DNA of 64,000 bases, taken from positions 248,001 through 312,000 of the forward strand of contig NZ_PDNV01000002.1 of assembly GCF_002849615.1 (NCBI RefSeq), written 5' to 3'. The notes below the pieces were generated by a model. It saw only the letters and a program-made list of their open reading frames with translations, ran no database searches and had not been told where the DNA came from. Shown one piece after another: positions 2,320 to 16,973 of the stretch; positions within the stretch are counted from its first letter, which is position 1, and every line of letters starts with the position of its first letter. A program made the position numbers and the translations under genes. This DNA is from Pollutimonas nitritireducens (GTDB lineage Bacteria > Pseudomonadota > Gammaproteobacteria > Burkholderiales > Burkholderiaceae_B).

Positions 2320-4521
2320 CTAAGCTAGGACGGCTGCTCTGGATGATTCAAGCGCCTCGTGGCCACTTCTGCCGCCTCGGTCATGATGAGCGATGACCCG
2401 CTCTTCCAAATTACTTACAGCCCGAAGCACTCGCGCCATGTCGATGACTTCATCATATACGGCAATTCCCGATTGACGCGCAATGTCGATATACTCGCGA
2501 CGCATTGCATCTAAGGCTTCAGACCTGTCGCTGCGCAAGGCGAGAAGGAAATGAATATCTGCGCCCCGTTCTGCCCGCACCTCGGTGATCACGGAGATCA
2601 AGTTGGTGAGAGGGTTACTAGTTCCCCGGCCGACAAAAGCGGCTAAATTCAGATGCATCGCTATGGCGTCCGGCTTCGCCTTTTCATAGACGATATCCAA
2701 GATTTCTTTTGCGATGAATCCATCCTTCTCCTGCAGGCTCCTGACGGGGGTATCAATGGGATTAAGGACACTCGTCCCTGGGGGGAAACCTAGCGCCTCC
2801 AGCTCGGAGAGAACTTCCGGTCGGAAGGGCATGACACTGAGATCGGAACGGGCGAAGGCGTCAGCCCCAAGAACGCTGGAGCCCCCGCCGTTGCCAAAGA
2901 GCACGACATTTTTCGTAGGCGTAGTTATTCTCAGTTCAAGAAACTGCAAAGCCAACAGCAAGTTGATGAACTCGTCCACGGTGTCCACAAGCTCGACGAA
3001 TGTCTGTTTTGCAAGAGCCTCCCAAGCTTCTTGCCCGGAAGCCAGTGCGCCCGTATGGGATTGAGCGGCGAGCTGTCCCTGCTGAGTGGCGCCTCCCCTC
3101 AGAATGACCACCGGCTTCGGATTTGCCGTCGCGCGAAGTACATCGAAGAGTTCACGGCCATTTTTGACGTCTTCTATGTACATGCCAATTGCCTTCGTGC
3201 TGGGGTCGGCAAGGTAGTACTGAAGGAGTTCAACGGGTTTTACATCGATGCTGTTGCCAATCGTTGCCAGCCCGCTGAAGCGCAAGCCGCGCCACTGGCC
3301 CCGCTTGATAATGTCTGTCGACAGTCCACCTGACTGCGAAACGACACCAATGGATCCTGTTTCAAGGGGCGCATCTTTTGGGAAGGTAAGCCGACCCGCC
3401 GGCGAGTAAGTACCCAAGCAGTTGGGGCCCAGCAAGCGAATACCAGCCCCTCGCGCTGTTTCAAGCAGTCGAGCCTGCTGCCTCTTGCCATCGTCCGTCT
3501 CATCAAAACCTGAACTGATGATTTGTACAAAACGACACTTTCCAGGCGCAACGTCGAGCGAAGAAATAATGCGCCCGGCTCCAATGGCGACATAGGTATA
3601 GTCCACATCTTTTGGCGCATCCGCCAGACTAGGATATGCCTTGAGGCCTTCGACTGTTTCCGCCTTAGGATGGATGGGATAGATTTCCCCTTCGAATCCG
3701 AATTCACGTAAACGGCGGATAAAGGTGTTTGCGATCGTCACTTCTTTCGCTGACGCGCCCAGAACGGCCACTGTCTTTGGATAAAACAGTGGCTGGAAGT
3801 GTTCGAGTACTTCTTCGTCATTGCGACGCTCGGCGTGCGGAAGCGCCGGACGGTCGGTTCTCCGCGAGATGAATCTGGCGTCTACCGCCACAAGTCTGTC
3901 ACCGGTGTGGATCAGAGGATTGATGTCGAGTTCCTCGATGTTTTCTTGATGAGTCATAAACAGCGCTGACTCCCCGCCTATTTTCATCAAGGCCTGTACC
4001 AGCATCTCCTTGTCGTATACGGCTCCCCCACGGAAACCGTCAAAAAGTTTGGAGGTTTGCAGGTCGGCTACCATACTGCGCGCATCGGCCTCTGTAATTG
4101 GACACACCCGAAAAGTCACATCCTTTAAAAGCTCGATGTATATGCCACCCAGTCCGAGCATGATGATCGGACCGAATTGCGTATCATAGAATCCACCGAT
4201 GGCGATCTCCAAACCCGAAGGGACCATCTCCTCCACTAACCAGCCATCAATGCGAGCCTCGCTGATGGCTGGCAGCCGGCTCATGCGCTCAATAGCTGCG
4301 ACAACCTGCTCTGTTGTCTCTAGCCCAAGGGTCACTCCCCCGGCTTCAGATTTATGCAGTATGTCGCCTGAAACCACTTTGACGACATAGGGCGCCCGGA
4401 GGGCAGCGGTGCGCTTCGCAGCGTCCTGCGCGTTGAGAGCGACGAACGATTGTGGCGTGTCTACGCCAAATTGCTCGAGAAGTTCCTTCCCGGCCTTTTC
4501 ATTCAAATTCACTGGATTCAT
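2320..4521 (-). CDS. ADP-forming acyl-CoA synthetase, fused ATP-grasp and CoA-binding halves
   Basis: Activates a carboxylic acid to its CoA thioester with ATP, giving ADP and phosphate (acetate-CoA ligase ADP-forming/succinyl-CoA synthetase superfamily). The order is beta then alpha: ATP-grasp at residues 1-225 (YVVKVVSGDILHKSEAGGV), CoA-binding Rossmann domain at 245-375 (VAVLGASAKEVTIANTFI), then the succinyl-CoA-ligase-like domain (GVVSQSGGLSTDI). The likely phosphorylated His is H489 in QSHTGALASG. It has 733 residues. The ATG at 4521 is preceded by AGGAG at a good distance. It is the last gene of a minus operon behind the carboxyltransferase (36-base gap), so it probably supplies or recycles the CoA ester for that carboxylase. 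The acid cannot be predicted. Confidence 0.9.
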   Translation of the reverse strand: MNPVNLNEKAGKELLEQFGVDTPQSFVALNAQDAAKRTAALRAPYVVKVVSGDILHKSEAGGVTLGLETTEQVVAAIERMSRLPAISEARIDGWLVEEMVPSGLEIAIGGFYDTQFGPIIMLGLGGIYIELLKDVTFRVCPITEADARSMVADLQTSKLFDGFRGGAVYDKEMLVQALMKIGGESALFMTHQENIEELDINPLIHTGDRLVAVDARFISRRTDRPALPHAERRNDEEVLEHFQPLFYPKTVAVLGASAKEVTIANTFIRRLREFGFEGEIYPIHPKAETVEGLKAYPSLADAPKDVDYTYVAIGAGRIISSLDVAPGKCRFVQIISSGFDETDDGKRQQARLLETARGAGIRLLGPNCLGTYSPAGRLTFPKDAPLETGSIGVVSQSGGLSTDIIKRGQWRGLRFSGLATIGNSIDVKPVELLQYYLADPSTKAIGMYIEDVKNGRELFDVLRATANPKPVVILRGGATQQGQLAAQSHTGALASGQEAWEALAKQTFVELVDTVDEFINLLLALQFLELRITTPTKNVVLFGNGGGSSVLGADAFARSDLSVMPFRPEVLSELEALGFPPGTSVLNPIDTPVRSLQEKDGFIAKEILDIVYEKAKPDAIAMHLNLAAFVGRGTSNPLTNLISVITEVRAERGADIHFLLALRSDRSEALDAMRREYIDIARQSGIAVYDEVIDMARVLRAVSNLEERVIAHHDRGGRSGHEALESSRAAVLA

Positions 4522-4557
4522 TGGCGCGCTCCTTGATCTATTAACATACGTCGATAA

Positions 4558-6090
4558 TTAAAAGCTGGTTGGCCAAGTGCGCATCATCCGGTCTCCAACC
4601 CCTCCGGATAGACGACGCTCCTGCACCTCGAGCATATTGATCATGAACTTGCGCGTCTCTTGTGGTTTCACGACATCGTGAGCTGAGAAAATCCTAGCCA
4701 TGTCCCAGATTTCGAGATCCTTTTGAATATTCGCCAGGGCCTCTTCAAACCCTTCGTCCGCCGACGTTTTACTGTGAACAATATTGGTGGCGAAGACCGG
4801 ATCCATAAAACTGACTTCCGCCATGGGCCATGCGATCATAGTGTCGTTATGGGCGCCTCCTCCCATGGCCACGTATGCTCGACCGTATGCCTTTCTGCAC
4901 AACACCGTAATTTGCGGCACAGTTGTCAGGCACGTCGCATTCATAAAGTTCATGATCTGGCCGGGGGCGCCTTTGCGTTCCGCTTCTGTGCCGACCACGA
5001 ATCCCGGCGTATCGACGAACCGGATGAGCGGTATGTTGAAACTGTCGCACAGAACTGTAAAGTCCACGGCCTTGCGACATGCTTCCGCCGATAGTGCACC
5101 ACCGCCCGTAAGAGGATTATTAGCGATCACCCCGACCACGCGTCCATCAAGCCTTGCCAGACAGGTCACCAGCGACTTACCGAAGCGCGCCTTCAACTCC
5201 AACATGCTGCCCTTATCGAAAACGATTTCCAGAATTTTCTTCATGTTGTATACCTGCGTCCGACGCTCCGGCAAAATGTCCAGAATGGCGTCCTGGTCGG
5301 AGACAGCGTCATCGGCTACCACTGTCCGTGGGGAGAGCTCCTTGGCGTTGGAAGGCATGTAAGAAAGGAATTTCCGAATCGCCATCATCGCTTCTTCGTC
5401 AGTGTCAACGAAATAGTCGATAAGGCCTGTCTGCTCGGCGTGCAAGCGCCAGCCGCCTAGATCTTCCAGATTTACTTTCTCGCCAATCGCCATTGAGACC
5501 AGGCGTGGGCTCGAGACGGACATGATAGAGCCCTTCTTCATCACCGCGAAGTCGGAAACGCAGCAGAGCCACGCAGAAGAGCCAAACGACGTGTTAAGCG
5601 CAGAGGCAGCCCAGGGAACGTCACGGGTGCGGCGAAACTGAGTCGTATCATTCCCCAACATCTGTCCCATACCCTTCGAGCCCATTGCATCGGGCAAACG
5701 CGCGCCCGTGGACTCGCCAATATGAACGAATGGGATGCCGCGTTCGTTACATGTTTTGCGGATATAACCCATTTTCTTGGAGTTGGTGGTACTGGTGGAC
5801 GCACCTTTAGTAGTGAAGTCATTCACCACGACTCCGGCGTGCCGACCATCGATTTTTCCGAATCCGACGATCTTGCCGTCGCGGGGAGTAACGTCCTTAT
5901 CCTGTTCAAACGCCGAGGCGCCCAGCAGACCAACTTCGAAGAAGCTACCTGGATCGACCAGCTTGTCCAAGCGCTCTTGCGCATTGAGATCCCCAGACTC
6001 GCGGCGCTTTTCCAGCTTGCGCTCGCCTCCCATTTCGCAGGCGGCAGCGCGTCTTTCGTCCAGCTCTTTCAACAGCTCGCTATGTTTCAT
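4558..6090 (-). CDS. Acyl-CoA carboxylase, carboxyltransferase (beta) subunit
   Basis: Transfers CO2 from carboxybiotin to an acyl-CoA. At 510 residues it has the usual length of propionyl-/methylcrotonyl-CoA carboxylase beta chains, with N-terminal (ERLDKLVDPGSFFEVG, GESTGARLPDAMGSKG) and C-terminal crotonase-like halves (NNPLTGGGALSAEACRKA, FVDTPGFVVGTEAE). The second oxyanion region reads RKAYGRAYVAMGGG, where most relatives have YGGAY, so the acyl pocket may differ. The matching biotin carboxylase and biotin carrier are not adjacent; they lie at 14335-15946. It sits 12 bases downstream of the enolase-superfamily gene and upstream of the acyl-CoA synthetase, in one operon. Its substrate is unknown; an alpha,beta-unsaturated acyl-CoA is one possibility given the nearby hydratase and lyase. 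Confidence 0.9.
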   Translation of the reverse strand: MKHSELLKELDERRAAACEMGGERKLEKRRESGDLNAQERLDKLVDPGSFFEVGLLGASAFEQDKDVTPRDGKIVGFGKIDGRHAGVVVNDFTTKGASTSTTNSKKMGYIRKTCNERGIPFVHIGESTGARLPDAMGSKGMGQMLGNDTTQFRRTRDVPWAASALNTSFGSSAWLCCVSDFAVMKKGSIMSVSSPRLVSMAIGEKVNLEDLGGWRLHAEQTGLIDYFVDTDEEAMMAIRKFLSYMPSNAKELSPRTVVADDAVSDQDAILDILPERRTQVYNMKKILEIVFDKGSMLELKARFGKSLVTCLARLDGRVVGVIANNPLTGGGALSAEACRKAVDFTVLCDSFNIPLIRFVDTPGFVVGTEAERKGAPGQIMNFMNATCLTTVPQITVLCRKAYGRAYVAMGGGAHNDTMIAWPMAEVSFMDPVFATNIVHSKTSADEGFEEALANIQKDLEIWDMARIFSAHDVVKPQETRKFMINMLEVQERRLSGGVGDRMMRTWPTSF

Positions 6091-6102
6091 AAGCTTTGTT
6101 CC

Positions 6103-7179
6103 TTAATATTCGATAACGTGTTTTGCGACAGTAAGACGGTCTATCGCCTCTTCGTCAAGTGTGGGTCTGAAACCGGCCTTCAACTGAATACGCCCTCGGC
6201 TAAATGGCAGCGGATTACAGAAAAGCTTATCCTTATGCTTCAGGAACCCATTGAACTCACCTTTGGTCTTAATGAGCCGTGCCGCGACGGCTGCCTCCAT
6301 CCAGTTATTAATTTCGCTCCCTAATCCATCACCCAAGACGGCCAGCATGTCGTGGTCGTGGACGCATTGGATTCCCTCAGCCAAGGCTTGCAAACTACCA
6401 AAGCGCTTCAGCTTGACCTTGCAGAAGCGCACGTTCGGAATAGTTGCCGCTCGCTCGATATCAGCGATGCTGCAGATGGGCTCATCAAGCATCAAGGGAA
6501 CCTGACTCTCTCGCGCCACAGCCGCGTTGTCATCCCAGGAATCCGCCTCGCAAGGTTGTTCAAAAAGGTCTGCACCGGGGTACTTCAGTCCCTGAACAAA
6601 CCGAATAGCGTCTTCTCTGGAATACGCGCGGTTTGCATCCAAACGAATCGTCGCGCGGCCGTCAAGTAGACGAAGGGTAAGGTTGGCCCGTTCGATGTCT
6701 GCCGCCACGTCTTTGCCCACTTTCACTTTGAAGGTAGTGAAACCTTCCGAGAGAAGCTGGCCCAGCTCGTGCTCTATCCCCGCCTCATCCATCGCATTAA
6801 TCGGAACAATAAGCTCAAGTTCTGCATCGTCCTGAATATTCAGCCACTCACTTCTCTCCAAGGACTCAAACGCTGTCATGAGCAGCGTTGTTGCGACCTT
6901 GCTTCGGGCGAGTTGCGCCATAACATCGGTTTTGAACTCTTCGATGCTCTTCCCACGAAGTTCGGCGAGGCGTTGCTGACAGTAAGTCCACGCACCTTCT
7001 CGGGTTTCGGCACTCGAGCCCGGAGAGACGTGAGCATCGGAAAAGGATCGCCTGCCGTCAGCATGCTCAAGTTGCAGAACGAACGGCTCAAACTCTGTAA
7101 ATGTGCGGTACGAAAGTCGATAAGGTTGGTAAAGCGGCAGCCGGAGCCACCGGAGCGTTGCTTTGGTTATGTCTCCCAA
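6103..7179 (-). CDS. Mandelate racemase/muconate lactonizing enzyme family protein (enolase superfamily)
   Basis: An enolase-superfamily enzyme that abstracts a proton alpha to a carboxylate; the family includes racemases, epimerases, dehydratases and cycloisomerases. It has 358 residues with an N-terminal capping domain and a barrel. Visible catalytic elements are the KxK motif FKVKVGK, three metal ligands in LDANRAY, FEQPC and LDEPI, and the opposite-face KVKLKRFG, followed by GDGLGSEI. The start is a TTG at 7179 with AAGGA at 7186-7190; no nearby ATG fits. First gene of the minus operon leading to the carboxyltransferase and acyl-CoA synthetase. A putative operator (7190-7208) overlaps its leader. 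The exact reaction cannot be told from sequence alone. Confidence 0.85.
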   Translation of the reverse strand: MGDITKATLRWLRLPLYQPYRLSYRTFTEFEPFVLQLEHADGRRSFSDAHVSPGSSAETREGAWTYCQQRLAELRGKSIEEFKTDVMAQLARSKVATTLLMTAFESLERSEWLNIQDDAELELIVPINAMDEAGIEHELGQLLSEGFTTFKVKVGKDVAADIERANLTLRLLDGRATIRLDANRAYSREDAIRFVQGLKYPGADLFEQPCEADSWDDNAAVARESQVPLMLDEPICSIADIERAATIPNVRFCKVKLKRFGSLQALAEGIQCVHDHDMLAVLGDGLGSEINNWMEAAVAARLIKTKGEFNGFLKHKDKLFCNPLPFSRGRIQLKAGFRPTLDEEAIDRLTVAKHVIEY

Positions 7180-7189
7180 TGTCTTTCCT

Positions 7190-7208
7190 TAGTGGTTGTC
7201 ATTATCAC
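7190..7208 (-). promoter_or_regulatory. Putative operator, 19-bp site shared with the 10.25 kb promoter
   Basis: Read on the minus strand the site is GTGATAATGACAACCACTA. It matches 17 of 19 positions of the site at 10245-10263. It also lies in an inverted repeat, TTAGTGGT (7189-7196) and ACCACTAA (7207-7214). It is in the gap between the divergent enolase-superfamily and CitE-like genes, so a bound protein could affect both. It touches the ribosome binding site of the minus-strand gene. The regulator is unknown. Confidence 0.55.
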
Positions 7209-7265
7209 CACTAAAGTTTAAACTATCACTAAATTAAACACAAGAGCATGAATATGGAGGAATCA

Positions 7266-8129
7266 ATGAAACGATCGCTACGAAGTGTGCTGTATGTGCC
7301 GGGAATCAATGAAAAAGCAATGCGTAAGGCGGCGACCTTACCTGTAGACGCCATCGTGCTCGATCTTGAAGATAGTGTCCTGCATGAACGTAAAAGTGAA
7401 GCCAGGGATACGCTATCACGTTTCCTTACAGCTAATCGAAGCGGATTCCATGGCAAGTACGTCGTGGTGCGCGTCAACGGTCGCGACACCGAATTCTGGG
7501 ACGACGATCTGGACATGGTCACTCCAGCTCGGCCAGACGCTGTACTACTGCCTAAAGTCATCGACCCTGACATTCCGCGGAACGCCCGGGAAAAGTTGAA
7601 TAAGGGGGGATCCGAATCGACGGCAATCTGGTGCATGATTGAGAATCCCCTCGGGATTCTCAAGCTGGAGAGTATTGTCGAAAATGGGCGGGCGGATGGC
7701 GTGGAATGTCTCGTCCTGGGCACCAACGACCTTATTAAAGATAGTGATATTGACCCGGGCGAAGGGCGGAAAAATCTTATACCCTGGCTCGCACATGTCA
7801 CTCTCGTGGCCAAGTCGTTCAATATTCAGGTTATTGACGGAGTGCTAAACAACATCCACGACCTTGACGCTTTGAAGGCGGAATCTGAAGTTGCCAAGGC
7901 GATGGGCATGAGCGGAAAAACGATCATCCATCCACTCCAAGTCGAAACCGTTAATCGCTGCTTTAGTCCGAGCGTTGAAGAGCTGGATCATTGGCGGCGG
8001 ATTGTGCACGCTTATTCGCTGCCCGAGAATGTCGGTAAAGGGGTCATCAACCTCGACGGCGTTATGGTCGAGCGCCTTCATCTCGAGATCGCCAATAGAC
8101 AACTACGAGATTACGGCTCTGATGTTTAG
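7266..8129 (+). CDS. HpcH/HpaI-CitE family lyase, citramalyl-CoA/citrate lyase beta-like
   Basis: A TIM-barrel Mg-dependent C-C lyase of the CitE type, which cleaves or forms beta-hydroxyacyl-CoA esters such as citramalyl-CoA, malyl-CoA or citryl groups. Family marks: SVLYVPGINEKAMRKA at the N-terminus, AIVLDLEDSV with metal-binding acidic residues, VVVRVNG, AVLLPKV, WCMIENPLGIL (the conserved Glu) and GKTIIHPLQVE near the end. The start at ATG 7266 is chosen over ATG 7248 because GGAGG sits at 7256-7260; this gives 287 residues. It is transcribed alone, divergent from the carboxylase operon across a shared operator. With the HTD2-like hydratase at 16.1 kb it resembles the last steps of the itaconate or methylaspartate-type pathways, which is an inference. 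Confidence 0.85.
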   Translation: MKRSLRSVLYVPGINEKAMRKAATLPVDAIVLDLEDSVLHERKSEARDTLSRFLTANRSGFHGKYVVVRVNGRDTEFWDDDLDMVTPARPDAVLLPKVIDPDIPRNAREKLNKGGSESTAIWCMIENPLGILKLESIVENGRADGVECLVLGTNDLIKDSDIDPGEGRKNLIPWLAHVTLVAKSFNIQVIDGVLNNIHDLDALKAESEVAKAMGMSGKTIIHPLQVETVNRCFSPSVEELDHWRRIVHAYSLPENVGKGVINLDGVMVERLHLEIANRQLRDYGSDV

Positions 8130-8182
8130 GTAAAAGGTAAAGCGGTGGATAGTGCCAGGTGCTAAGTACATCATTCACTGCC

Positions 8183-8929
8183 TTACCTCGCATAAAGATA
8201 AATTCCTTGCGCCAGGTAGGCGCCGCCGACCACCATAAGGATGGACTTAGTCCATCGTCGAAACTGAGTATCGGAAAGTCTATCTAGAATGGTGCGACTC
8301 AGCGTGGTTCCAGCGACTGCCATAAAAATGCAGAGTCCAAAAATCCACGTGTCCACGCCCTCGCCACTAAGGGTGTGTCCGATTTGGAGAAAGTAAATCA
8401 ACTTCGCAAAGTGTGCCGCAGTCTGGCAGACAGCTTTGGTGGCAACAATTGTACGTCGATCAAACTCTGAACGAATGAAAAACGCATCCAGCACCGGTCC
8501 AGAAACGCCCGCCATGAACTGGAGCAAGACATTCAAGAAACCGCAAATCTCCGCACCAAACGGGCGGTCCGCCTGTGGAATTAGAGTGGGCGGTACCAAC
8601 ATAACCAAAAACGGCACGCAGCCGAGACAAATTAGGACAGTGGCACGGTCGGGCACGTAGCTCACAAAGAAAAAAAGCGCACAAGCAGCGAGCAAACCGC
8701 AAGTAAAACGCAGGAACACACGAAAATCTACGTAGCGCCGCCAAACAACACCGCGCCACCCATTCGACGTCATCTGTGTCACACCGTGCAGCACCATAGC
8801 CGTCGGCACGGGCAGGACGAGCAAGAGTGCACCCATCAAAATCATCCCCCCCGCCATGCCGAAAGCGCCCGAGATAAAGCCCGCGACCAGCACCGAAGCA
8901 CCGATAAATATAGTAACGAATACGTTCAT
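8183..8929 (-). CDS. TSUP/TauE-SafE family membrane exporter or permease
   Basis: A polytopic inner-membrane protein of the TauE/SafE (TSUP) family, whose members move sulfite, sulfonates, sulfoacetate or other small organic anions. It has 248 residues, and about eight hydrophobic segments can be seen. The N-terminal motif GFISGAFGMAGGMIL is typical of the repeated family half. ATG 8929 is preferred; a TTG at 8938 would add three residues. It lies 85 bases downstream of a Bug receptor gene on the same strand, so the two may be co-transcribed. The substrate is not predictable. Confidence 0.8.
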   Translation of the reverse strand: MNVFVTIFIGASVLVAGFISGAFGMAGGMILMGALLLVLPVPTAMVLHGVTQMTSNGWRGVVWRRYVDFRVFLRFTCGLLAACALFFFVSYVPDRATVLICLGCVPFLVMLVPPTLIPQADRPFGAEICGFLNVLLQFMAGVSGPVLDAFFIRSEFDRRTIVATKAVCQTAAHFAKLIYFLQIGHTLSGEGVDTWIFGLCIFMAVAGTTLSRTILDRLSDTQFRRWTKSILMVVGGAYLAQGIYLYAR

Positions 8930-9014
8930 ATACGCCAATAAATATAGAAACTAGTAGCAGAGGTACATGCGGTTCATATCCAGTCGCAGTCCAAACCTAA
9001 GTGAGTCGGCACGC

Positions 9015-10040
9015 CTACAACCCAAGGGTCCCGGCCAACGTTTGCCATTTTTTGTTTTCTTGCCGCATTAGAGCGGAGAGTTCCTCGGAACTACTGCTTC
9101 TCGGCACCAAGGCCAGTCGCTCAATGGCGGCGCGACTTCCGCTCGACGACACGACCTCTTCGACAGCCGCTTGTAACCGGGTAATGACGCGACGATCCAA
9201 TCCCGCGGGTGCCATCAAAGCGTACCAAGCGCCCCCAACCAATTCCGGAAATCCGCTCTCAGTCGTGGTCGGAACGCCCTCCATGCCCTTGACCCGATCC
9301 GGCGCCGCCATCGCGAGCGCCTTCAAGTTGCCAGCATCGATGAAGCTGCGCGCGACAAGAGGAGGCACAAACGCATAATCAATATGCCCGGCCACGAGAT
9401 CACTCACCGTAGCGGACATACCCTTATAGGGCACGTGGGTCACTTGGATTCCGGCCTCACTGTTCAGCTGCTCGCCTAGCAGATGGCTTGACGTGCCTGT
9501 GCCTGAAGAACCGAAATTGGCCGCTCCAGGGTTCGCCTTCACATACTCGACAAGCTCTGAGAGCGAGCTCGGCGGAAAGCCGGGACGAGCAACTACTACG
9601 TACGGCCCTCTTGCAACCTGCGATATCGGTTGCAGGTCTGTAAACGGGTCGTACTGCATCGACTCAAGAATCACCGGCGCGATAGTAAGCTCTGGATCCG
9701 ATGCGAAAAGAAGTGTGTAGCCATCGGGCGGCGCCTTACTCACTAAATTTGCAGCCACCGTTCCTCCCGCGCCTGGTTTGTTCTCCACAAGGAAGGGTGT
9801 ACCCAATGCAGCACTAAGCTGCTCAGCAACGAGTCGAGACAACACGTCGGTTCCGCCGCCAGGCGAATAGCCGACGATGAACCGAACCGGCCGCCCCTGC
9901 TCGGGCCATTCCGAGGCGTGCGCGGCCATTCCGATGCCGGCAGTGGCAAGAGAAGCAACAATTAAGGAAAAGGCTGCCGAGAGAAACCGGGACCGCGAGG
10001 TGTTGTGAAGATGTTGCGGATAGCGTTGAACGAAGCGCAT
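9015..10040 (-). CDS. Bug family tripartite tricarboxylate transporter receptor (TctC-like)
   Basis: A periplasmic solute-binding protein of the Bug/TctC family, which captures small carboxylates or amides for a TctAB permease. It has an N-terminal arginine stretch followed by a hydrophobic core ending ...AAHASEW, a likely signal peptide, then PVRFIVGYSPGGGTDVLSR, VENKPGAGGTVAANLV and THVPYKGMSATVSDL. The start at ATG 10040 is chosen because GGAGGAGAC precedes it; 341 residues. No TctAB gene is adjacent; the only pair in the window is at 23.7-25.7 kb. The 9-bp motif CAACCACTA lies 70 bases upstream (10110-10118). Confidence 0.9.
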   Translation of the reverse strand: MRFVQRYPQHLHNTSRSRFLSAAFSLIVASLATAGIGMAAHASEWPEQGRPVRFIVGYSPGGGTDVLSRLVAEQLSAALGTPFLVENKPGAGGTVAANLVSKAPPDGYTLLFASDPELTIAPVILESMQYDPFTDLQPISQVARGPYVVVARPGFPPSSLSELVEYVKANPGAANFGSSGTGTSSHLLGEQLNSEAGIQVTHVPYKGMSATVSDLVAGHIDYAFVPPLVARSFIDAGNLKALAMAAPDRVKGMEGVPTTTESGFPELVGGAWYALMAPAGLDRRVITRLQAAVEEVVSSSGSRAAIERLALVPRSSSSEELSALMRQENKKWQTLAGTLGL

Positions 10041-10109
10041 TTCAGGGTCTCCTCCTATGATTAGAAAGGCGAAAGGCCGGGTTACTTTCGCTTTTAGGCG
10101 TCTTATTTG

Positions 10110-10118
10110 CAACCACTA
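10110..10118 (+). promoter_or_regulatory. CAACCACTA motif upstream of the first Bug receptor gene
   Basis: One of four copies of this 9-mer found in intergenic parts of the catabolic island. The 19-base context (10100-10118) keeps 14 positions of the 10245-10263 site. It lies between the divergent receptor genes, about 70 bases upstream of the minus-strand start. Function inferred from recurrence only. Confidence 0.4.
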
Positions 10119-10214: not shown

Positions 10215-10243
10215 TTGACACTCTGCTAGCGCTTCAATAGAGT
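10215..10243 (+). promoter_or_regulatory. Sigma-70-type promoter for the Bug receptor-amidase operon
   Basis: TTGACA at 10215-10220 is a perfect -35 box. A 17-base spacer separates it from TAGAGT at 10238-10243 (four of six -10 positions). The putative operator begins right at the -10 box, a position that suits repression. It lies 38 bases upstream of the chosen start codon. Confidence 0.6.
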
Positions 10244-10244
10244 A

Positions 10245-10263
10245 GTGATAAATACAACCACTA
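10245..10263 (+). promoter_or_regulatory. Putative operator overlapping the receptor-amidase promoter
   Basis: GTGATAAATACAACCACTA matches 17 of 19 bases of the site at 7190-7208. With the preceding TA it forms an inverted repeat, TAGTG (10243-10247) and CACTA (10259-10263). It sits immediately downstream of the -10 box and would block transcription if bound. Confidence 0.55.
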
Positions 10264-10280
10264 TTTATTGGAGACAAATT

Positions 10281-11273
10281 ATGCTCGCTTCATTGTCCCA
10301 GGCTTGTCTAATCGCGCGCGCCCTCGCCGTGTGCGCCGTCCTTGCTATGACGATACAGGCGCCTGTCAGTGCAGCGGAATGGCCAACCAAACCGGTGACA
10401 ATCATCGATCCGTACTCAGCCGGAGGCACGACCGACTTTATCGCACGGGTTCTTGCAAAGCACCTTAGCGAAACACTGAATCAGTCGTTCGTCGTGGAAA
10501 ACAGGGGCGGAGCGGGCGGCACTATCGGCACAGCCCGCATGGCTCAATCGGTTCCGGACGGCCACACGCTGCTGATCAACAATATGAGCATTGCTTTCAG
10601 CAAGGCGCTGTATCCCAGCCTTCCGTATGACACTGAGACCGACATAGCGCCAGTCGCCTTGATCGGCAGCACACCGACTATCTTGGCAGTCGCAAACTCG
10701 GTAAAGGCGGATTCAATTAAAGATCTCATCTCAATGGCCAAGACTGCCCCGGAAAGTCTGAATTTCGGTTCTGCAGGCATCGGAAGCACCGGACATATGG
10801 CTATGGTAGCTCTGCAGAGGACTGCTGATATCGAGATACAACACATCCCATACAAAGGAGCCGGCCAGGCGCTGACCGATCTCATCGGCGGGCGCATTGC
10901 CATCATGATGAACACGATTACGCCAATGGTCTCGAACGTAAAATCAGGGTCTATTCGCGGCCTTGCTAGTTCAGGCAGCTCTCGCTCCGCGGCACTGCCC
11001 GACGTCCCCACTGTGGCCGAATCCGGCTTACCAGGATTCTCGTATGCGCCCTGGTTCGCCTTCTTCGCACCGGCTGGTACCCCTCCAGATGTCGTCCAGA
11101 AAATTCATGCCGCAATCTACGAGGCTGTCGCAGACCCGGAAGTTTCGGCCAAGCTCTCCCAGCAAGGTATCGAACTCGAACGCATGAGCGTGGAGGAGTT
11201 TAAGACCCGTTACCATTCCGACATCGAGGAATGGACCGCGACGATTCATGAACTTGGCATAAAACTTCAATAG
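10281..11273 (+). CDS. Bug family tripartite tricarboxylate transporter receptor (TctC-like)
   Basis: The second periplasmic Bug receptor. ATG 10281 is preceded by GGAG at 10270-10273; the frame is open to 10245 but lacks a ribosome binding site there. It has 330 residues, with a signal peptide ending VSAAEW, then PVTIIDPYSAGGTTDFIAR, VENRGGAGGTIGTARM and HIPYKGAGQALTDLIGGR, all family marks. First gene of an operon with two amidases (10 and 6-base gaps). This suggests the ligand is, or becomes, an amidase substrate. It is divergent from the receptor at 9015-10040, and an operator overlaps its promoter. Confidence 0.9.
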   Translation: MLASLSQACLIARALAVCAVLAMTIQAPVSAAEWPTKPVTIIDPYSAGGTTDFIARVLAKHLSETLNQSFVVENRGGAGGTIGTARMAQSVPDGHTLLINNMSIAFSKALYPSLPYDTETDIAPVALIGSTPTILAVANSVKADSIKDLISMAKTAPESLNFGSAGIGSTGHMAMVALQRTADIEIQHIPYKGAGQALTDLIGGRIAIMMNTITPMVSNVKSGSIRGLASSGSSRSAALPDVPTVAESGLPGFSYAPWFAFFAPAGTPPDVVQKIHAAIYEAVADPEVSAKLSQQGIELERMSVEEFKTRYHSDIEEWTATIHELGIKLQ

Positions 11274-11283
11274 CGCTGCTTGT

Positions 11284-12624
11284 ATGGAAAAGTTAGAACC
11301 TGCAGCCAAGAACCCCAGCTGGATGCCTGGGGTTGCGCTCGGCGCGTGTGCGATTCGAGCTCACCTCGAATCGCGTGCATTTGACACCAAAACACTGATT
11401 TCAAGCCTGCTCGAAAAAATCAGACAGCATGAGCCAGTTACGCAAGCCTGGGAATGGCTGGACGAGGCTCAAGCGATATCTTCGGCGCGCGATCGGGACA
11501 CGCAGTACGCAGCGAGTCTAGCCCGCCCCCTGGAAGGTATCCCTTTCGGCATCAAAGATATCATCGAAACCCAGGGGGTGCCCACGCGAATGGGGTCACC
11601 GCTATTCGCCGACTACGTACCTGAAGAATCTGCGCCCGTGATCCGCGCCCTTGAAGACGCCGGCGCAATTATCCTTGGCAAAACTGTCACTACAGAGTTT
11701 GCTACTCAGTGTCCCGGCAAGACTCGCAACCCTTGGAATCAGGCTTATAGCCCTGGGGGTTCGTCTAGTGGGTCAGCGGCGGCAGTGGCGGCCGGTTTTG
11801 TACCTGCAGCCCTAGGAACACAGACGCGTGGATCAACTATTCGGCCGGCCGCGTTCTGTGGCGTCGTCGGATATAAACCCACGCTGGGCGCGATATCGAC
11901 GTCCGGAATATTCCCTACGAGCGTTACACTCGACCATGTTGGGATATTCGCTCGCTCGGTCGAGGACATTTCGTTAATCTCGTCGGTCTGTGTACCTGAT
12001 TCCAACGCCCTAGCACCCGCTCCAGGCAAGCCGCCTATTTTGGCGTTCGTGAAATCTCCATACTGGTCACGCGCTGAGCCCCCACAGCGGCGTTGCATTG
12101 AAGCGGCTCTACAGAGTTTCACAGCGGCAGGAGCACAGGTAAAACACGTTGAGCTACCACCGGCGTTTGATGGGGCGCTCAATGCTATCAACCAAATTCA
12201 GCGTTTTGAGCTTTTTCAGCTGCACGGTAACCGGCTCGAGGATTGGAGACCCGCCTTGAGCCGGCAATTTCTGGACTACATGGAATCGGGCAGACGCATA
12301 ACTGTGCCCCAGTATCGGGAAGCATTGGCGTACCGCGACAAGCTCATTGGAATGTATGACGACATCATTAGCCCATTCTCCGCAGTCGTGACTCCCCCTG
12401 CAAATGGCGAAGCTCCGGAAGGGTTGACGACAACAGGTGACGCGACATTTTGTGTGATCTGGACGCTTTGCGGTGCGCCCGCTATATCGCTGCCTGCCGG
12501 ACGTGGCCCTCACGGTTTACCGCTTGGCATCCAGTTGGTCGGACATCGGCACTATGACGGATCCCTACTTCAGACCGCGCTCTGGTGCGAAGCTGTGCTG
12601 CAACGCAGTCAATGCATCTACTGA
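11284..12624 (+). CDS. Amidase signature family protein
   Basis: An amidase-signature hydrolase (Ser-cisSer-Lys triad) that cleaves carboxamides to acid plus ammonia or amine. It has 446 residues. The triad elements are Lys in GIPFGIKDIIET, cis-Ser in GGSSSGSAAAVAAG and the nucleophile region GTQTRGSTIRPAAFCG. That last motif has Arg where most relatives have Gly or Ala just before the catalytic Gly-Ser, next to the oxyanion hole. Ten bases after the Bug receptor and six before a second amidase; clearly one operon. No signal peptide, so cytoplasmic. Substrate unknown. Confidence 0.88.
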   Translation: MEKLEPAAKNPSWMPGVALGACAIRAHLESRAFDTKTLISSLLEKIRQHEPVTQAWEWLDEAQAISSARDRDTQYAASLARPLEGIPFGIKDIIETQGVPTRMGSPLFADYVPEESAPVIRALEDAGAIILGKTVTTEFATQCPGKTRNPWNQAYSPGGSSSGSAAAVAAGFVPAALGTQTRGSTIRPAAFCGVVGYKPTLGAISTSGIFPTSVTLDHVGIFARSVEDISLISSVCVPDSNALAPAPGKPPILAFVKSPYWSRAEPPQRRCIEAALQSFTAAGAQVKHVELPPAFDGALNAINQIQRFELFQLHGNRLEDWRPALSRQFLDYMESGRRITVPQYREALAYRDKLIGMYDDIISPFSAVVTPPANGEAPEGLTTTGDATFCVIWTLCGAPAISLPAGRGPHGLPLGIQLVGHRHYDGSLLQTALWCEAVLQRSQCIY

Positions 12625-12630
12625 ATCACC

Positions 12631-14226
12631 ATGACGGAACTCCACGACCTCACAATCGCTCAAGCGAGCTCGGCCATTGCGAAGCGGGAAATTTCTCCCG
12701 TCGATCTCACGCGCGCGCTCATTGAGCGCATCACAGATTACGATGGTGGCATCCATTCGTTCATAACGCTGACGCCGGGCTTGGCATTACAGCAAGCCAA
12801 GAACGCCGAGCGCGAGATTTTCCGGGGAAATCGACGAAGCGCGCTGTGTGGAATCCCATTTGCCCTGAAAGATGTCTATGACACGGCCAGCATTCGGACA
12901 ACCGGCCACTCCAAGGTTTTCCAAAACAGAGTACCGAACGAGGACTCTGAATGCGCCCGCCGGCTGCTTGCGGCCGGCGGCATATTAATGGGAAAGCTTG
13001 CCACACATGAAATGGCACACGGCGGGCCATCGTTCGATCTGCCCTGGCCTCCGGCACGAAACCCGTGGAGTACGAGCTGCTTTACTGGCGGGTCCAGTAG
13101 CGGCAGTGGCGCGGCTATCGCAGCACGGTTTATACCAGCTGCATGTGGCACGGACACAGGAGGGTCCATCCGAGGGCCCGCGTCTCTTTGTGGGATTTCC
13201 GGCTTCATGCCGACTGCAGGCGTGATCAGCCGCCTAGGGGTCATTCCAAATTCTTTTACGTTCGATCGTTGCGGTCCTATGGCGAGGACCGTAGAAGACT
13301 GTGCTCTTCTCATGCAGGCTCTCGCAAGCCGCTGCGCCACTACGAATTCTCCACCCGGTTCGGATCCCGATACCGACTATACGACTGCGTTGTTGCCTCA
13401 TCTAAAAGGAAAACGTATAGGGGTGGTCAGAGCTTACTGGGAGGAAGAGACGCAACAGTCACCAGAAGTCATCGTAGCGATAGAAGAAGCACTCTCGACG
13501 CTGAAAGGACTTGGTGCTGAAGTCGAAGACGCGTCTTGGCTCCCGCTTCGTGACGCCCTCGACGTGAAAATAGGGATAGGTCAACCGGAAATTTTTTCCG
13601 TTCATGCTGAAGCACTACGTCGAGACCCCAGCCAGTTCGGGGCCGATTTCCAACAGAGAGTATTGCCTGCATGCCTCTTCACCGCTCGCGATCTTTTGAA
13701 CGCACGGCTGGCACACCAGCAAATGAAGTTAGTCGCGCTCGAGGCTTTCGAGCGGTACGACGCGCTGGTTACCATTTCGCAGGGAAGGGCTCCACTGCTG
13801 GCCGCTCATAAACCGATCGACTACTGGCGTCGCCTTAACACCTATGCACCGGCCAATGTTTCCGGTGGGCCGGCTCTGGTCGTCTGCGCCGGCTTTTCAG
13901 ACGGCCTACCCGTGGGGATGCAAATTATTGGCAAGCCACATGGTGACCTTGATGTGTTACGAATAGGGTACGCGTTTCAGCAGGCGACCCATTGGCACCT
14001 GCGCAGCCCGTTACTTTCGCAGCCAGAGAATAGCCCAGGCGTTGCTTTTTTTAACGGCGCGGAGGGCCAGCCCCGCGAACCGGACTCGGCCCTGTCCATC
14101 CTATGCGAACAAGCAGCTTTACGTGCCGGCCTGCCCGTCAATGAAAAGCTGATAGAAACGCTGTCTCGCGCGGCCCCTTTTGTATTCGCAATGTCTAGGC
14201 GCCTGGCAACACGGAAATCGCTGTAG
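12631..14226 (+). CDS. Amidase signature family protein, GatA-like, with C-terminal extension
   Basis: The second amidase of the operon, 531 residues, longer than its neighbour by about 85. The triad is canonical: Lys in GIPFALKDVYDT, cis-Ser in GGSSSGSGAAIAAR and nucleophile Ser in GTDTGGSIRGPASLCG. GMQIIGKPHGD marks the end of the core fold. The last roughly 75 residues (after about 455) go beyond the usual end and carry no motif I recognise. It starts with ATG 12631, six bases after the previous stop, so translation is probably coupled. It is not the tRNA amidotransferase subunit: no gatB or gatC is nearby. Confidence 0.88.
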   Translation: MTELHDLTIAQASSAIAKREISPVDLTRALIERITDYDGGIHSFITLTPGLALQQAKNAEREIFRGNRRSALCGIPFALKDVYDTASIRTTGHSKVFQNRVPNEDSECARRLLAAGGILMGKLATHEMAHGGPSFDLPWPPARNPWSTSCFTGGSSSGSGAAIAARFIPAACGTDTGGSIRGPASLCGISGFMPTAGVISRLGVIPNSFTFDRCGPMARTVEDCALLMQALASRCATTNSPPGSDPDTDYTTALLPHLKGKRIGVVRAYWEEETQQSPEVIVAIEEALSTLKGLGAEVEDASWLPLRDALDVKIGIGQPEIFSVHAEALRRDPSQFGADFQQRVLPACLFTARDLLNARLAHQQMKLVALEAFERYDALVTISQGRAPLLAAHKPIDYWRRLNTYAPANVSGGPALVVCAGFSDGLPVGMQIIGKPHGDLDVLRIGYAFQQATHWHLRSPLLSQPENSPGVAFFNGAEGQPREPDSALSILCEQAALRAGLPVNEKLIETLSRAAPFVFAMSRRLATRKSL

Positions 14227-14334
14227 ACGAAGCGGTGACGGCGCAGCAGCTCTACGAAGCTGCGCCGAATTAATGGAATGCTGACCACAGTGGCACTAGC
14301 ATTCCTTAGCCATCCGCGCCGGCTTGCCCAGCTT

Positions 14335-15714
14335 CTATGCGACCTTCGACTGTGCTTGCAGCAAGGTGGACTTGTGCTCTTCGACAAATCCGGTGCTGAC
14401 CTGCCCTGAGCGGAAAGCCGTGTGCTCCATGCAGGAGATGAGGAAGTCAAGATTCGTTTTGATACCTTGCACCCTTACTTTTGCCAGAGCGCCAAGCATT
14501 GCTTCGATTGCATCTGCCCTATCCGCACCGTAAGCGATGATTTTAGCGATCATAGGATCATAGAAAGGCGTAATTTCGCCTCCCTGCTCATATCCGGTTT
14601 CAATTCGGATCCGTTCGGAGTCGACCTCCGCCAAGTCAAATAAACTCAACTTACCCGGGGAAGGCATGAAGTTCTTCTCGGGGTTCTCAGCGTACAGCCG
14701 GCATTCGATCGCGTGACCGCTCTGCTGGATCTCGTCTTGCGTCATGGCCTGCAGCTCTCCTCCAGCGTACTGGAGCTGCATGGCGACAAGGTCCAGACCG
14801 GTAATCATTTCGGTCACAGGATGCTCGACTTGGATCCGCGTATTCATCTCCAGGAAGAAGAACTCTCCAGTATTCACATCGAAAATGAACTCAACCGTTC
14901 CTGCGCCCTGATATCCTACGGATACGGCGAGGTTAATCGCAGCTTTCTGCATTTCCTGGCGGACTTCCATTGGGATGTCAGGCGCCGGTGCCTCTTCAAT
15001 GATCTTCTGAAAGCGACGCTGTAGTGAGCAGTCGCGCTCATACATATGAACCGCGGTCGTATCGAAGCCAAAGACCTGCACTTCCACGTGGCGCGCACAA
15101 GGAATGAACCGCTCTAAGAAGATGTGATCGCTCCCGAATGCCGCCTTGGCTTGCGACTGCGTCGCCGCAGCAGCTTCGACGAGTTTCGACGGCTCGAAAA
15201 CCTGACGCATTCCTATACCGCCCCCTCCGGCGGCCGCCTTCACGAGTAGCGGAAATCCAATGCGCTCGGCTTCTGCAAGAAGCACTTCCGGATTGCTCGC
15301 ATCCATTCGGCCGGTGCCGGGAACCACTGGCACCCCTGCCCTTATCGCGAGGTCCCTCGCATTCTGTTTGTGCCCCATTGCTTGGATCGATTCAGGACGA
15401 GGTCCAATCCAGGCCAAGCCGTCGGAAATGACTGCTGCCGCAAAGTCGTAGTTCTCGGCAAGAAAGCCGTAGCCAGGATGCACTGCGTCTGCTCCAGTCT
15501 GACGGGCGGCATCCAGGATCTTTGCGCCGTCCAAGTAACTGAGCGTACTTCGTGAAGGTCCGATATGCACGCTTTCGTCGGCCATACGGACGTGCGGGGA
15601 GGCGGCATCCGCATCCGAATAGACGGCAACGGAGGCAACGCCTAGTTTCCGACACGCGCGGATGACACGGCAGGCGATCTCTCCCCTGTTAGCGATCAGT
15701 ATTTTCTTAAGCAT
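14335..15714 (-). CDS. Biotin carboxylase subunit of an acyl-CoA carboxylase (AccC-like)
   Basis: Carboxylates the biotin on its carrier protein using ATP and bicarbonate. It has 459 residues with the N-terminal biotin-carboxylase domain (KILIANRGEIACRVIRAC), an ATP-grasp glycine loop (KAAAGGGGIGMRQ), the catalytic FLEMNTRIQVEHPVTE, and a C-terminal domain (FMPSPGKLSLF). There is no fused carrier domain. It begins 10 bases after the biotin carrier gene and is preceded by GGAGAG. It probably pairs with the carboxyltransferase at 4558-6090, since this window shows no other partner. That makes a three-part carboxylase encoded in two places. It could also be mistaken for the fatty-acid AccC, but the context argues against that. 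Confidence 0.9.
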   Translation of the reverse strand: MLKKILIANRGEIACRVIRACRKLGVASVAVYSDADAASPHVRMADESVHIGPSRSTLSYLDGAKILDAARQTGADAVHPGYGFLAENYDFAAAVISDGLAWIGPRPESIQAMGHKQNARDLAIRAGVPVVPGTGRMDASNPEVLLAEAERIGFPLLVKAAAGGGGIGMRQVFEPSKLVEAAAATQSQAKAAFGSDHIFLERFIPCARHVEVQVFGFDTTAVHMYERDCSLQRRFQKIIEEAPAPDIPMEVRQEMQKAAINLAVSVGYQGAGTVEFIFDVNTGEFFFLEMNTRIQVEHPVTEMITGLDLVAMQLQYAGGELQAMTQDEIQQSGHAIECRLYAENPEKNFMPSPGKLSLFDLAEVDSERIRIETGYEQGGEITPFYDPMIAKIIAYGADRADAIEAMLGALAKVRVQGIKTNLDFLISCMEHTAFRSGQVSTGFVEEHKSTLLQAQSKVA

Positions 15715-15724
15715 CTTGCTCTCC

Positions 15725-15946
15725 TCAAACCTCGATGCGGGCTACGACAGTCCCCTCAGTAACTGTATCCCCCTCTTGAATCAGGATCTCCTTCACGGTG
15801 CCGCTCTCTACAGCCACCACGGGGATTTCCATCTTCATGGATTCCAAGATCATGATCGGTTCGTCTTCCCCTACTTGCGAACCGACTTGTTGAACGATCT
15901 TCCATACGTTACCCGTTATCTCGGTCTTGATATCAATTATTGCCAT
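15725..15946 (-). CDS. Minimal biotin carboxyl carrier protein
   Basis: A 73-residue protein made of little more than a biotinyl/lipoyl domain, with the biotin-acceptor Lys38 in ESMKME. The C-terminal half (GTVKEILIQEGDTVTEGTVV) is the second hairpin of the fold. It lacks the Pro/Ala linker and N-terminal domain of housekeeping AccB. Its ATG follows GGAG. It is the first gene of a two-gene operon with the biotin carboxylase. It is expected to shuttle carboxybiotin between that enzyme and the carboxyltransferase at 4.6-6.1 kb. Confidence 0.9.
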   Translation of the reverse strand: MAIIDIKTEITGNVWKIVQQVGSQVGEDEPIMILESMKMEIPVVAVESGTVKEILIQEGDTVTEGTVVARIEV

Positions 15947-16097
15947 GTTCTCCGTCCTGTCCTGTATATCGATAGTGTTTTATTTGTCTCTAGTAGGCGG
16001 CTAGGATACTGATCCGCCCCCGCCAGCGTGCTTGACAACTATCATATCTAAAATCTATAGTAGTTGCAATCACAACAACGAAATCCGGAGAAACTCG

Positions 16098-16973
16098 GTG
16101 ACTGCTACTAAAGAGCTGGATAAACACAACACGACAGGCAAGATTGAAGACTGGCAGGGCCGGCAAAGCACAACGACAGAAGTTATAGAGAAGTGGCCGC
16201 TCAATGGCCTTGGCAGCCTTATTGACGGCCGTTCCAACATATCGGCCGTTGACTCTTCGGGCGCGGTGCATCCCTGCGGCCATTGGCTTTACTTCGTCCC
16301 AGTCGTTGCGCAATCCGAGATAGACGCGGACGGACATCCTAAAAGGGGCGGCTTTATTCCTCCCCTACCGCACGCGCGGCGCATGTGGGCCAAAAGCGTC
16401 ATCACGTACCACGACGATCTGCTCGTCGGAGAACAAATTCATAAAACAGCGACGATTTCTAGTATTGAGCGAAAAACAGGCAAATCCGGTGAACTGGTTT
16501 TTCTTGGCATCAATAATCAGTATTCGCAGGAAGGCCGCATCCTCCGAGAGGAAGAGCAAACCATTGTCTACAGAGACCATCAAGATTACGACGACAACAT
16601 ATTCACACTGAAAGCTAAAGCGGCCGCCGACTGGTCGTTCTCAGGAAAGCTCAGCTCCACCGAACTGTTCCGCTATTCTGCTGTGACTTTTAACGGACAT
16701 CGTATTCACTACGATGCCGACTATACGCGGGAGGTAGAGAAGTATCCGGCGATCATCGTACAAGGTCAGCTAATAGCAACGCTGGTGTTAAGTCACGCTC
16801 TGGCAGCGGCAGGAGTAAACCGATGCAAGCGCTTTACTTTTAAGGCAGTCAAGCCGCTTTTCGTGGACCGACCATTCCTGATCGAAGGTATGCGACTTTT
16901 CGAAGGAAAAATAGAGGCTTGGGCTCGAGAGAAAGACGGGCGGGTCAATATGCTTGCTGAGATCGTCTTATAG
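16098..16973 (+). CDS. HTD2/MaoC-like hydratase, mesaconyl- or itaconyl-CoA hydratase-like
   Basis: A hot-dog-fold hydratase related to HTD2, mesaconyl-C4-CoA hydratase and itaconyl-CoA hydratase; these add water to unsaturated dicarboxyl-CoA esters. Marks: HPCGHWLYFVP, GGFIPPLPHARRMWA, then a second hot-dog with LFRYSAVTFNGHRIHYDADY, which carries the catalytic Asp/His region. The start is GTG 16098 with CGGAG at 16086-16090; an upstream TTG at 16032 lacks a ribosome binding site. This gives 291 residues. It is divergent from the biotin carrier/carboxylase operon. With the carboxylase and CitE-like lyase it completes a plausible carboxylation, hydration and cleavage series. The substrate is inferred only from relatives. 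Confidence 0.8.
   Translation: MTATKELDKHNTTGKIEDWQGRQSTTTEVIEKWPLNGLGSLIDGRSNISAVDSSGAVHPCGHWLYFVPVVAQSEIDADGHPKRGGFIPPLPHARRMWAKSVITYHDDLLVGEQIHKTATISSIERKTGKSGELVFLGINNQYSQEGRILREEEQTIVYRDHQDYDDNIFTLKAKAAADWSFSGKLSSTELFRYSAVTFNGHRIHYDADYTREVEKYPAIIVQGQLIATLVLSHALAAAGVNRCKRFTFKAVKPLFVDRPFLIEGMRLFEGKIEAWAREKDGRVNMLAEIVL

Follow-up and report, generated by a model that had tools for sequence, protein, structure and literature searches.

Gene content and organization of the island

The 64,000-nucleotide stretch of Pollutimonas nitritireducens analysed here (the window; contig NZ_PDNV01000002.1, positions 248,001 to 312,000) carries an island of small operons on alternating strands, encoding an acyl-CoA synthetase, a biotin-dependent carboxylase, an enolase-superfamily enzyme, a hydratase, a lyase, amidases and transporters. 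An earlier reading of the sequence (the original prediction) had placed a pathway that activates, carboxylates, hydrates and cleaves an acid within positions 2320 to 16973; the island is larger than this range and spans 2.3 to about 26.9 kb of the window. On balance, we favor the view that it is a dedicated regulon by which an anionic organosulfonate with at least one carboxylate is taken up and degraded, releasing sulfite. The gene content, its recurrence, a common operator and an operon-type linkage to sulfite-disposal families are directly observed. The features of the island are listed below; operators are given without strand.

2320-4521, reverse strand: ACS, ADP-forming acyl-CoA synthetase, 733 amino acids (aa), beta-alpha fused (PF13549, PF13380, PF13607; ATP-grasp_5, CoA_binding_2, Succ_CoA_lig)
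4558-6090, reverse: CT, biotin-dependent acyl-CoA carboxyltransferase of a divergent subfamily (PF01039, E 2.4e-91)
6103-7179, reverse: ENO, enolase superfamily, muconate-lactonizing-like (PF13378; alignment to 2p88 and 1wuf)
7191-7212: operator between ENO and CitE (score 0.90; whole-genome scan)
7248-8129, forward: CitE-like CoA-ester lyase (PF03328, E 3.9e-35)
8183-8938, reverse: TauE/SafE-family exporter (PF01925, E 9e-19), 85 bp behind TctC1 on the same strand
9015-10040, reverse: TctC1 binding protein (PF03401; start by codon scoring)
10096-10117: weaker operator-like site upstream of TctC1 (score 0.74; missed by the whole-genome pattern scan)
10241-10262: operator upstream of TctC2-Ami1-Ami2 (score 0.83; whole-genome scan)
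10281-11273, forward: TctC2 binding protein (PF03401; start at ATG 10281, from sequence reading)
11284-12624, forward: amidase 1, Ami1 (PF01425)
12631-14226, forward: amidase 2, Ami2 (PF01425)
14335-15714, reverse: BC, biotin carboxylase (PF00289, PF02786, PF02785)
15725-15946, reverse: BCCP, 73-aa biotin carrier (PF00364; ESMKM site in the sequence)
16059-16080: operator between BCCP and HTD (score 0.79; whole-genome scan)
16098-16973, forward: HTD, itaconyl-CoA-hydratase-like, MaoC type (PDB 8khg, E 2.3e-51; aligned to the near-identical entry 8huc)
17106-17127: operator upstream of the SsuABC-like operon (score 0.78; whole-genome scan)
17221-18063, forward: ABC ATPase, nitrate/taurine type (PF00005; best NCBIfam matches below cut-off)
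18036-18878, forward: ABC permease, TauC-like (PF00528; PRK10160 187 bits, under the cut-off of 342)
18863-19810, forward: alpha/beta hydrolase (PF00561)
19982-21472, forward: amidase 3 (PF01425)
21442-22488, forward: SsuA-family substrate-binding protein (TIGR01728, 165.8 bits against a cut-off of 163.5)
22600-23493, reverse: TrmB-type regulator (PF01978; with the core in 36 of 41 places)
23666-25174, reverse: TctA (PF01970)
25178-25696, reverse: TctB (PF07331)
25666-26652, reverse: TctC3 (PF03401; start by codon scoring)
26846-26867: operator upstream of TctC3-TctB-TctA (score 0.79; whole-genome scan)

Much of the original prediction is borne out by these assignments. The ADP-forming synthetase, the enolase-superfamily enzyme and the CitE-type lyase lie at or near the places given for them and have strong family matches, all three parts of the predicted carboxylase are found, and the hydratase said to resemble itaconyl/mesaconyl-CoA hydratases is HTD. 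The arrangement in several small divergent operons is real, and these share an operator. All three predicted amidases are present, but only two of them lie within the range first given, the third being at 19982-21472. The start of HTD is probably the GTG at 16098 and not the frame start at 16032, because an operator covers positions 16059-16080.

Recurrence in other genomes

A genome scan with CT yielded 38 loci (L006-L043), and a plasmid search added an annotated Sulfitobacter copy (L044) of 75% identity; together with G444 and the window these make up the 41 places compared, leaving out L110 (a duplicate of L027) and the plasmid loci L045-L047, the CTs of which are about 50% identical. Gene counts per place are lower bounds, as six loci fall short of 12 kb and only some of the genomes were extended by their outer flanks. 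ACS is found in 40 places, ENO in 38, BC, BCCP and the TrmB-type regulator in 36 each and TctA in 28. The co-occurrence on which the original prediction had been staked is thus seen for the core, and HTD and CitE, each present in 16 places, both accompany it in 14. The core consists of ENO, CT, ACS, BC, the 73-aa BCCP and the TrmB-type regulator, usually with TctABC, and its distribution over alpha- and betaproteobacteria is patchy. ENO, CT and ACS are tightly packed one after another, and in some loci their ends overlap; the amidases and the ABC system lie outside the conserved core of the relatives. A chance grouping of genes was rejected, given that the set recurs wholly or partly in 39 other loci; it is conserved and very probably catabolic.

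Within the family, 7 of 200 genomes (the window's own included) have a CT of at least 80% identity and 23 of 200 have any match at E <=1e-150, with no match in the four other same-genus genomes listed. Across the phylum, CT was found in 2 of 398 genomes, viz., the window's own and one at 50% identity. ENO, searched for in the orders of G597 and G600, was found only in G597 itself among 390 genomes of the former and in 4 of 397, G600 included, of the latter.

An extra AcnA-like aconitase is present in 12 of the 41 places. It was seen with the cluster in L012, L018, L022-L025, L027, L033, L035, L040 and L041, mostly where HTD is absent, both being together in L027 and L041. In G597, G601, G602, G603 and G612, the AcnA-like gene of the cluster is present besides a higher-scoring aconitase copy, and it may be a hydratase of the pathway or a resistant isozyme. 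MmgE/PrpD-type genes are found in L029 and L031, and were recognized by eye in L017 and L021.

A common operator

A 22-bp palindrome close to AGTRGTTGYNATNRCAACYACT was found by comparing the intergenic regions of the window. The window sites were condensed by eye into its consensus and therefore fit it by construction; the informative tests are those in the relatives and in the remainder of the genomes. Six window sites score at least 0.74 (starting at 7191, 10096 (weak), 10241, 16059, 17106 and 26846), all of them in the island, and the part of the window from 30 to 64 kb has no site. As a control, ten first-order Markov sequences as long as the window averaged 0.6 hits at a threshold of 0.70, falling to none at 0.75. 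A scan of the whole genome allowing three mismatches returned five distinct matches, all in the island, and one match to the reversed pattern used as a control.

An operator site precedes a cluster gene in 24 of the 39 other loci. When the 18 other carrier genomes were scanned with up to two mismatches, 16 had matches, and 20 of the 21 distinct sites lie in the cluster, the remaining one being elsewhere (G597:C29); the reversed pattern gave 5 matches in these genomes against 38. No match was found at this threshold anywhere in the genomes G444 and G605. The outer flanks of the loci (32 stretches, 560.5 kb) contain three hits, one of which lies between BCCP and HTD (L103) and another borders the TctC of L006 (L114).

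The operator precedes nearly every operon of the island, including those of the amidases and the SsuABC-like transporter, and the island is one dedicated regulon. The amidases and the ABC system therefore belong to the regulon in the window genome, and an early view of the amidases as unrelated insertions, taken from relatives that lack them in the core, was reversed for this genome by the common operator. The 22-bp operator is probably read by the TrmB-type protein, because this is the only regulator family present in most places; no operator was found before the TrmB-type gene itself in the window. This dedicated pair of operator and regulator offers a direct way to the substrate, viz., the compound that releases the regulator.

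Linkage to sulfite-disposal genes

The original prediction overlooked a sulfur signal, consisting of TauE in the island, YeiH and SoeABC-like genes in the relatives and the SsuA-family protein in the regulon, and this signal points to a sulfonated acid from which sulfite is released. Probing 39 loci and the window (40 places) with the cluster's own proteins identified YeiH relatives in 12, TauE in three (the window, L006 and L007) and a SoeA-like molybdoenzyme in four; the sets are disjoint and total 19 of 40. The 32 outer stretches (560 kb) yielded no hit to any of the three, although relatives diverged from these cluster-derived probes may be missed there. The sulfite exporter or dehydrogenase gene looked for in an organosulfonate cluster is thus present as TauE in the window and in one form or another in 19 of the 40 places. 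We read the island as serving an organosulfonate because the cluster contains or adjoins genes of three unrelated sulfite-disposal families, none of which was found in the outer flanks.

The linkage is of the operon type. In L006 (Advenella), TauE lies 45 bp behind BC. YeiH is flanked by CitE and AbrB in L012 and L041, and in L031, where it overlaps f22, an operator immediately precedes the pair. SoeA stands behind HTD-f17-f9 in L014, L020 and L043, and the SoeA operon runs on into L095 and L097 with matches to SoeB and SoeC. The NCBIfam YeiH model gave a count of 23 genes or fragments in 19 whole genomes (the 18 carriers and the window's own), of which seven lie at the cluster (G597, G598, G599, G602, G603, G605 and G611), where they are the sole copy in G598, G599, G602 and G603. 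The permease of the ABC system in the regulon is closest to TauC, under the cut-off of the model.

SoeA is about 67% identical to a relative in an Azospirillum cluster of the order TctCBA-aldehyde dehydrogenase-CoA ligase-SoeABC-xsc, in which the CoA ligase consists of ATP-grasp and CoA-binding subunits. NCBIfam gave only distant molybdoenzyme matches, and SoeA was identified on the basis of this cluster, of the SoeB/SoeC-like genes that follow SoeA and of Ruegeria pomeroyi, for which PMC4334477 lists soeABC, with locus tags, adjacent to pta and close to tauR. An xsc-containing set lies about 21 kb from CT in L023. TauE is cited as a sulfite exporter in a section of PMC12421959. The strain name of L025, Merri, is that of the sulfofucose-degrading Paracoccus of PMC12421959, in the main text of which the terms enolase and carboxylase are absent.

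These observations bear on whether the acid contains sulfur at all. The original prediction had suggested an amide- or nitrogen-bearing acid, and a sulfur-free, probably amide-derived acid could be activated, carboxylated, hydrated and cleaved by the confirmed gene set, with the exporter genes being incidental. The window amidases do carry the common operator, which keeps part of that suggestion standing in the window, and HTD and CitE resemble enzymes of the itaconate pathway. However, the amidases are outside the conserved core, in 19 of 40 places this core is accompanied by one of three unrelated sulfite-disposal families, to which the outer flanks gave no hits, and seven of 23 YeiH-family genes lie at the cluster. 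We thus regard a sulfur-free substrate as unlikely, and the compound handled by the island is most likely a sulfonated acid.

The same regulon could instead serve a simpler sulfonate, 3-sulfopropionate or sulfoacetate, with ACS forming the sulfoacyl-CoA, CT carboxylating it and HTD and CitE acting on later or other intermediates, a proposal that overlaps with the one favored here. ADP-forming CoA ligases are described for both acids in portions of PMC12890257 and PMC11489063, so that such a ligase would suit a sulfonate, and the Azospirillum cluster unites TctABC, an ADP-forming CoA ligase, SoeABC and xsc. However, the window island has no Xsc or aldehyde dehydrogenase, and an Xsc probe of the loci and flanks matched in one outer flank only (L100). 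Moreover, CitE chemistry poorly fits a C2 or C3 skeleton, and the island TctABC is not closely related to the sulfoacetate type. A C2 or C3 sulfonate is therefore a doubtful, though tenable, candidate.

Features of the enzymes

ACS has NCBIfam matches far under the equivalog cut-offs and matches the 3-hydroxypropionate-CoA ligase 9y43 in the PDB (E 2e-92). BC, BCCP with its MKM site and CT together form a complete gene set for a biotin-dependent acyl-CoA carboxylase. CT resembles the beta chain of propionyl-CoA carboxylase (PCC), scoring 281 bits to 1vrg against at most 163 bits to methylcrotonyl-CoA carboxylase (MCC) chains; alpha-carboxylation is therefore likelier than the leucine-type reaction, and carboxylation of the MCC type is disfavored. 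Alignment of CT with PCC-type chains shows GSSA in place of AGGA and GRAYV in place of GGAY. The motifs GSSAW and GRAYV are kept in all 40 CT orthologues, and the CTs of L045-L047 differ. The AGGA and GGAY motifs of PCC-type chains form the oxyanion holes, and a CT lacking them may still carboxylate.

Aligned to 2p88, ENO retains the KxK motif, D181, E207, D232 and the second-strand Lys of the muconate-lactonizing enzyme (MLE) subgroup. The third metal ligand is Asp in 36 of 37 aligned rows (Tyr in L036), and R25, R259 and K314 are invariant among the 37 homologues. The hydratase motif of HTD is conserved in 14 homologues. CitE carries the conserved blocks of its family and scores equally against malyl-CoA/beta-methylmalyl-CoA lyase and the mitochondrial citrate-lyase-beta-like protein of the PDB. 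Its score against RipC_Ccl is 121 bits, where the cut-off is 375, and TIGR01588 is also under its cut-off. As regards the itaconate pathway, an Ich-type hydratase is represented by HTD, whereas CitE fails to score as a RipC/Ccl lyase.

The resemblance of HTD to itaconyl-CoA hydratase raises the possibility that ACS, HTD and CitE form a pathway of the itaconate/mesaconate type, degrading a C5-dicarboxylate to pyruvate and acetyl-CoA, in which ACS could stand in for the CoA transferase and the carboxylase and ENO would be merely co-regulated for a second purpose. The match between CitE and RipC_Ccl is in the same direction, but lies below the cut-off. In many loci, however, ENO-CT-ACS is present with BC and BCCP and without HTD or CitE nearby, and the sulfite-family genes would be left unexplained. 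We consider a C5-dicarboxylate pathway of this kind improbable, more so than a sulfur-free acid processed by the whole set.

A proposed route for an organosulfonate

CitE-type lyases require a beta-hydroxyacyl-CoA bearing a carboxylate, and HTD-type hydratases form a beta-hydroxyacyl-CoA from an unsaturated precursor. Enolase-superfamily enzymes abstract a proton beside a carboxylate, and the loss of a group from the adjacent carbon can follow. For the organosulfonate regulon favored here, we propose the following route, in which import, activation and alpha-carboxylation are put forward because of the enzyme families. TctABC, and here also the SsuABC-like ABC system, would import the compound, and the amidases and the alpha/beta hydrolase may set the acid free by hydrolyzing an amide or ester. 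ACS would convert it to the CoA ester using ATP, and BC, BCCP and CT would carboxylate its alpha carbon to a malonyl-CoA-type intermediate. From the chemistry of its family, we infer that ENO may take the proton beside the carboxylate and expel sulfite from the neighboring carbon by the beta-elimination of the enolase superfamily. HTD would then hydrate the unsaturated CoA ester, a step in which AcnA-like or PrpD-like enzymes may substitute in relatives, and CitE would split the resulting beta-hydroxyacyl-CoA, yielding an acyl-CoA together with a 2-oxo acid. Finally, TauE would export the sulfite.

As a guess, the substrate could be a sulfosuccinate-like C4 acid, the simplest compound that would use all the enzymes. 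The series would run from sulfosuccinyl-CoA through its alpha-carboxylated form, a sulfite-free unsaturated tricarboxylate CoA ester and the hydrate of the latter to glyoxylate and malonyl-CoA. The AcnA-like and PrpD-type genes of the relatives suit a polycarboxylate intermediate.

The central step of this route would be a carboxylation-dependent desulfonation, with ATP spent both on CoA and on biotin carboxylation to reach a sulfonated malonyl-CoA-type intermediate, from which ENO expels sulfite. We advance it tentatively, as a mechanism rather less probable than the organosulfonate regulon itself.

Several points weigh against the proposal. We know of no sulfo-lyase in the enolase superfamily, and no known C-S-cleaving enzyme (Xsc, SuyAB, CuyA or a glycyl-radical lyase) is among the families found for the island proteins; the relatives were probed for Xsc, and not for SuyAB or CuyA. 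From sulfosuccinate, sulfite could in principle be eliminated with no prior carboxylation. ENO was not found in L019 and L038, which have CT and ACS, and the stretch of G444 that was read contains the core but lacks HTD, CitE, an exporter and an operator. The sulfite linkage has its own weak sides besides the origin of the probes. TauE, YeiH and SoeA were not found in 21 of the 40 places (six loci being shorter than 12 kb), the three TauE cases are confined to related lineages, as are the four SoeA cases, and TauE-family genes are common in bacteria. The YeiH copies of the cluster score 89-138 bits against a cut-off of 232.6, which only a non-cluster gene of G444 passes, and sulfite export by this family is predicted from homology only. 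These low scores weaken the naming of the genes about as much as the counts in whole genomes strengthen the linkage. AbrB, the neighbor of YeiH in two loci, is also present in two outer stretches, and the SsuA_fam match is barely above its cut-off. The TctABC proteins are only about 28-42% identical to those of the sulfoacetate type, and ACS barely matches the CoA ligase of that set. Lastly, PMC11489063 calls a TauE a probable 3-sulfopropionate exporter.

Bacterial desulfonation is known to use a short list of enzymes. If the island serves as proposed, it would be a new combination of enzymes for sulfonated acids and would widen the range of routes in the organic sulfur cycle. Carboxylation-dependent desulfonation, if true, would cleave the C-S bond in a novel manner, within a new pathway that has a CT subfamily and a regulator to itself. 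The GSSAW and GRAYV motifs of CT and the 22-bp operator could serve as markers of the pathway in genomes and metagenomes.

Comparison with known systems

Sulfoacetate-type clusters, such as that of Azospirillum brasilense p4 (L121), which from its genes probably serves sulfoacetate, are alike in the TTT importer, the ADP-forming CoA activation and, in some relatives, the SoeABC-type genes. The island differs from them in lacking aldehyde dehydrogenase and Xsc and in having the biotin carboxylase system, ENO, HTD and CitE, and its transporter and ligase are only distantly related; TctABC and ACS were tested as orthologues of the Azospirillum set and rejected. Itaconate degradation (Ict, Ich and Ccl/RipC) similarly begins with CoA activation and has Ich and Ccl as counterparts of HTD and CitE, whereas the island has an ADP-forming synthetase instead of a CoA transferase and, in addition, the carboxylase, ENO and the exporter. 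Propionyl- and acetyl-CoA carboxylases share the three-part biotin enzyme with a CT of the PCC beta type, but differ in the two CT motifs, replaced by GSSA and GRAY in 40 of 40 orthologues. The leucine pathway (MCC, methylglutaconyl-CoA hydratase and HMG-CoA (3-hydroxy-3-methylglutaryl-CoA) lyase) follows the same logic of carboxylation, hydration and cleavage, but the island CT is not MCC-like and the lyase is of another family. The routes of SuyAB (sulfolactate sulfo-lyase) and CuyA (cysteate sulfo-lyase), with TauE/CuyZ exporters, are alike in that sulfite is eliminated and then exported, as proposed here; neither enzyme is among the island families, and the eliminating enzyme proposed is of the enolase superfamily.

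Thus, the island resembles a sulfonate dissimilation system ending in a CoA-ester lyase and is a member of no described system that could be tested, because a C-S-cleaving enzyme is not recognized, CitE is below the Ccl cut-off and the CT motifs are unlike those of PCC-type chains. In agreement with the original prediction, which knew of no described pathway with this gene set, the open-licence literature searched contained no account of it, nor of sulfosuccinate, 3-sulfopropionate or sulfoacetate routes using it.

Other observations

Methionine adenosyltransferase (MetK) genes are part of cluster operons in several lineages. One overlaps ENO in Sulfitobacter (L044:17742-18908), another lies 17 bp behind HTD and also behind an operator (L103:3747-4865), and others are within the TctCBA run, beside TctA, in L034 and L042, and at L018:17356-18522. 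A second copy is present elsewhere in G599, G603 and G611, and the only copy found in G597 is that near the cluster. MetK was rejected as a member of the core, being in only 5 of 41 places. A protein of the repeated-rhodanese-domain family is found near the cluster in L024, L029 and L031 (Pfam checked in L029).

In G444 (L079 and L080), the cluster core lies between genes resembling, by eye, PhnCDE, PhnN and PhnM (phosphonate uptake and C-P lyase). A link to phosphonates was set aside, as such genes were not noticed in the other loci, where no systematic search was made. A sister CT family of about 50% identity is encoded on Variovorax and Cupriavidus plasmids (L045, L046 and L047), next to CoA transferases, TctC and a further carboxyltransferase type and, in Cupriavidus, also MaoC proteins.

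The GC content is 0.51-0.57 in the island, 0.59-0.60 at 30-36 kb and 0.55 again at the window end; horizontal transfer of the island is only suggested, because of this second drop. Just beyond the island lie a transposase/integrase-core fragment (window positions 27646-28254) and a tRNA-Arg gene (28586-28660).

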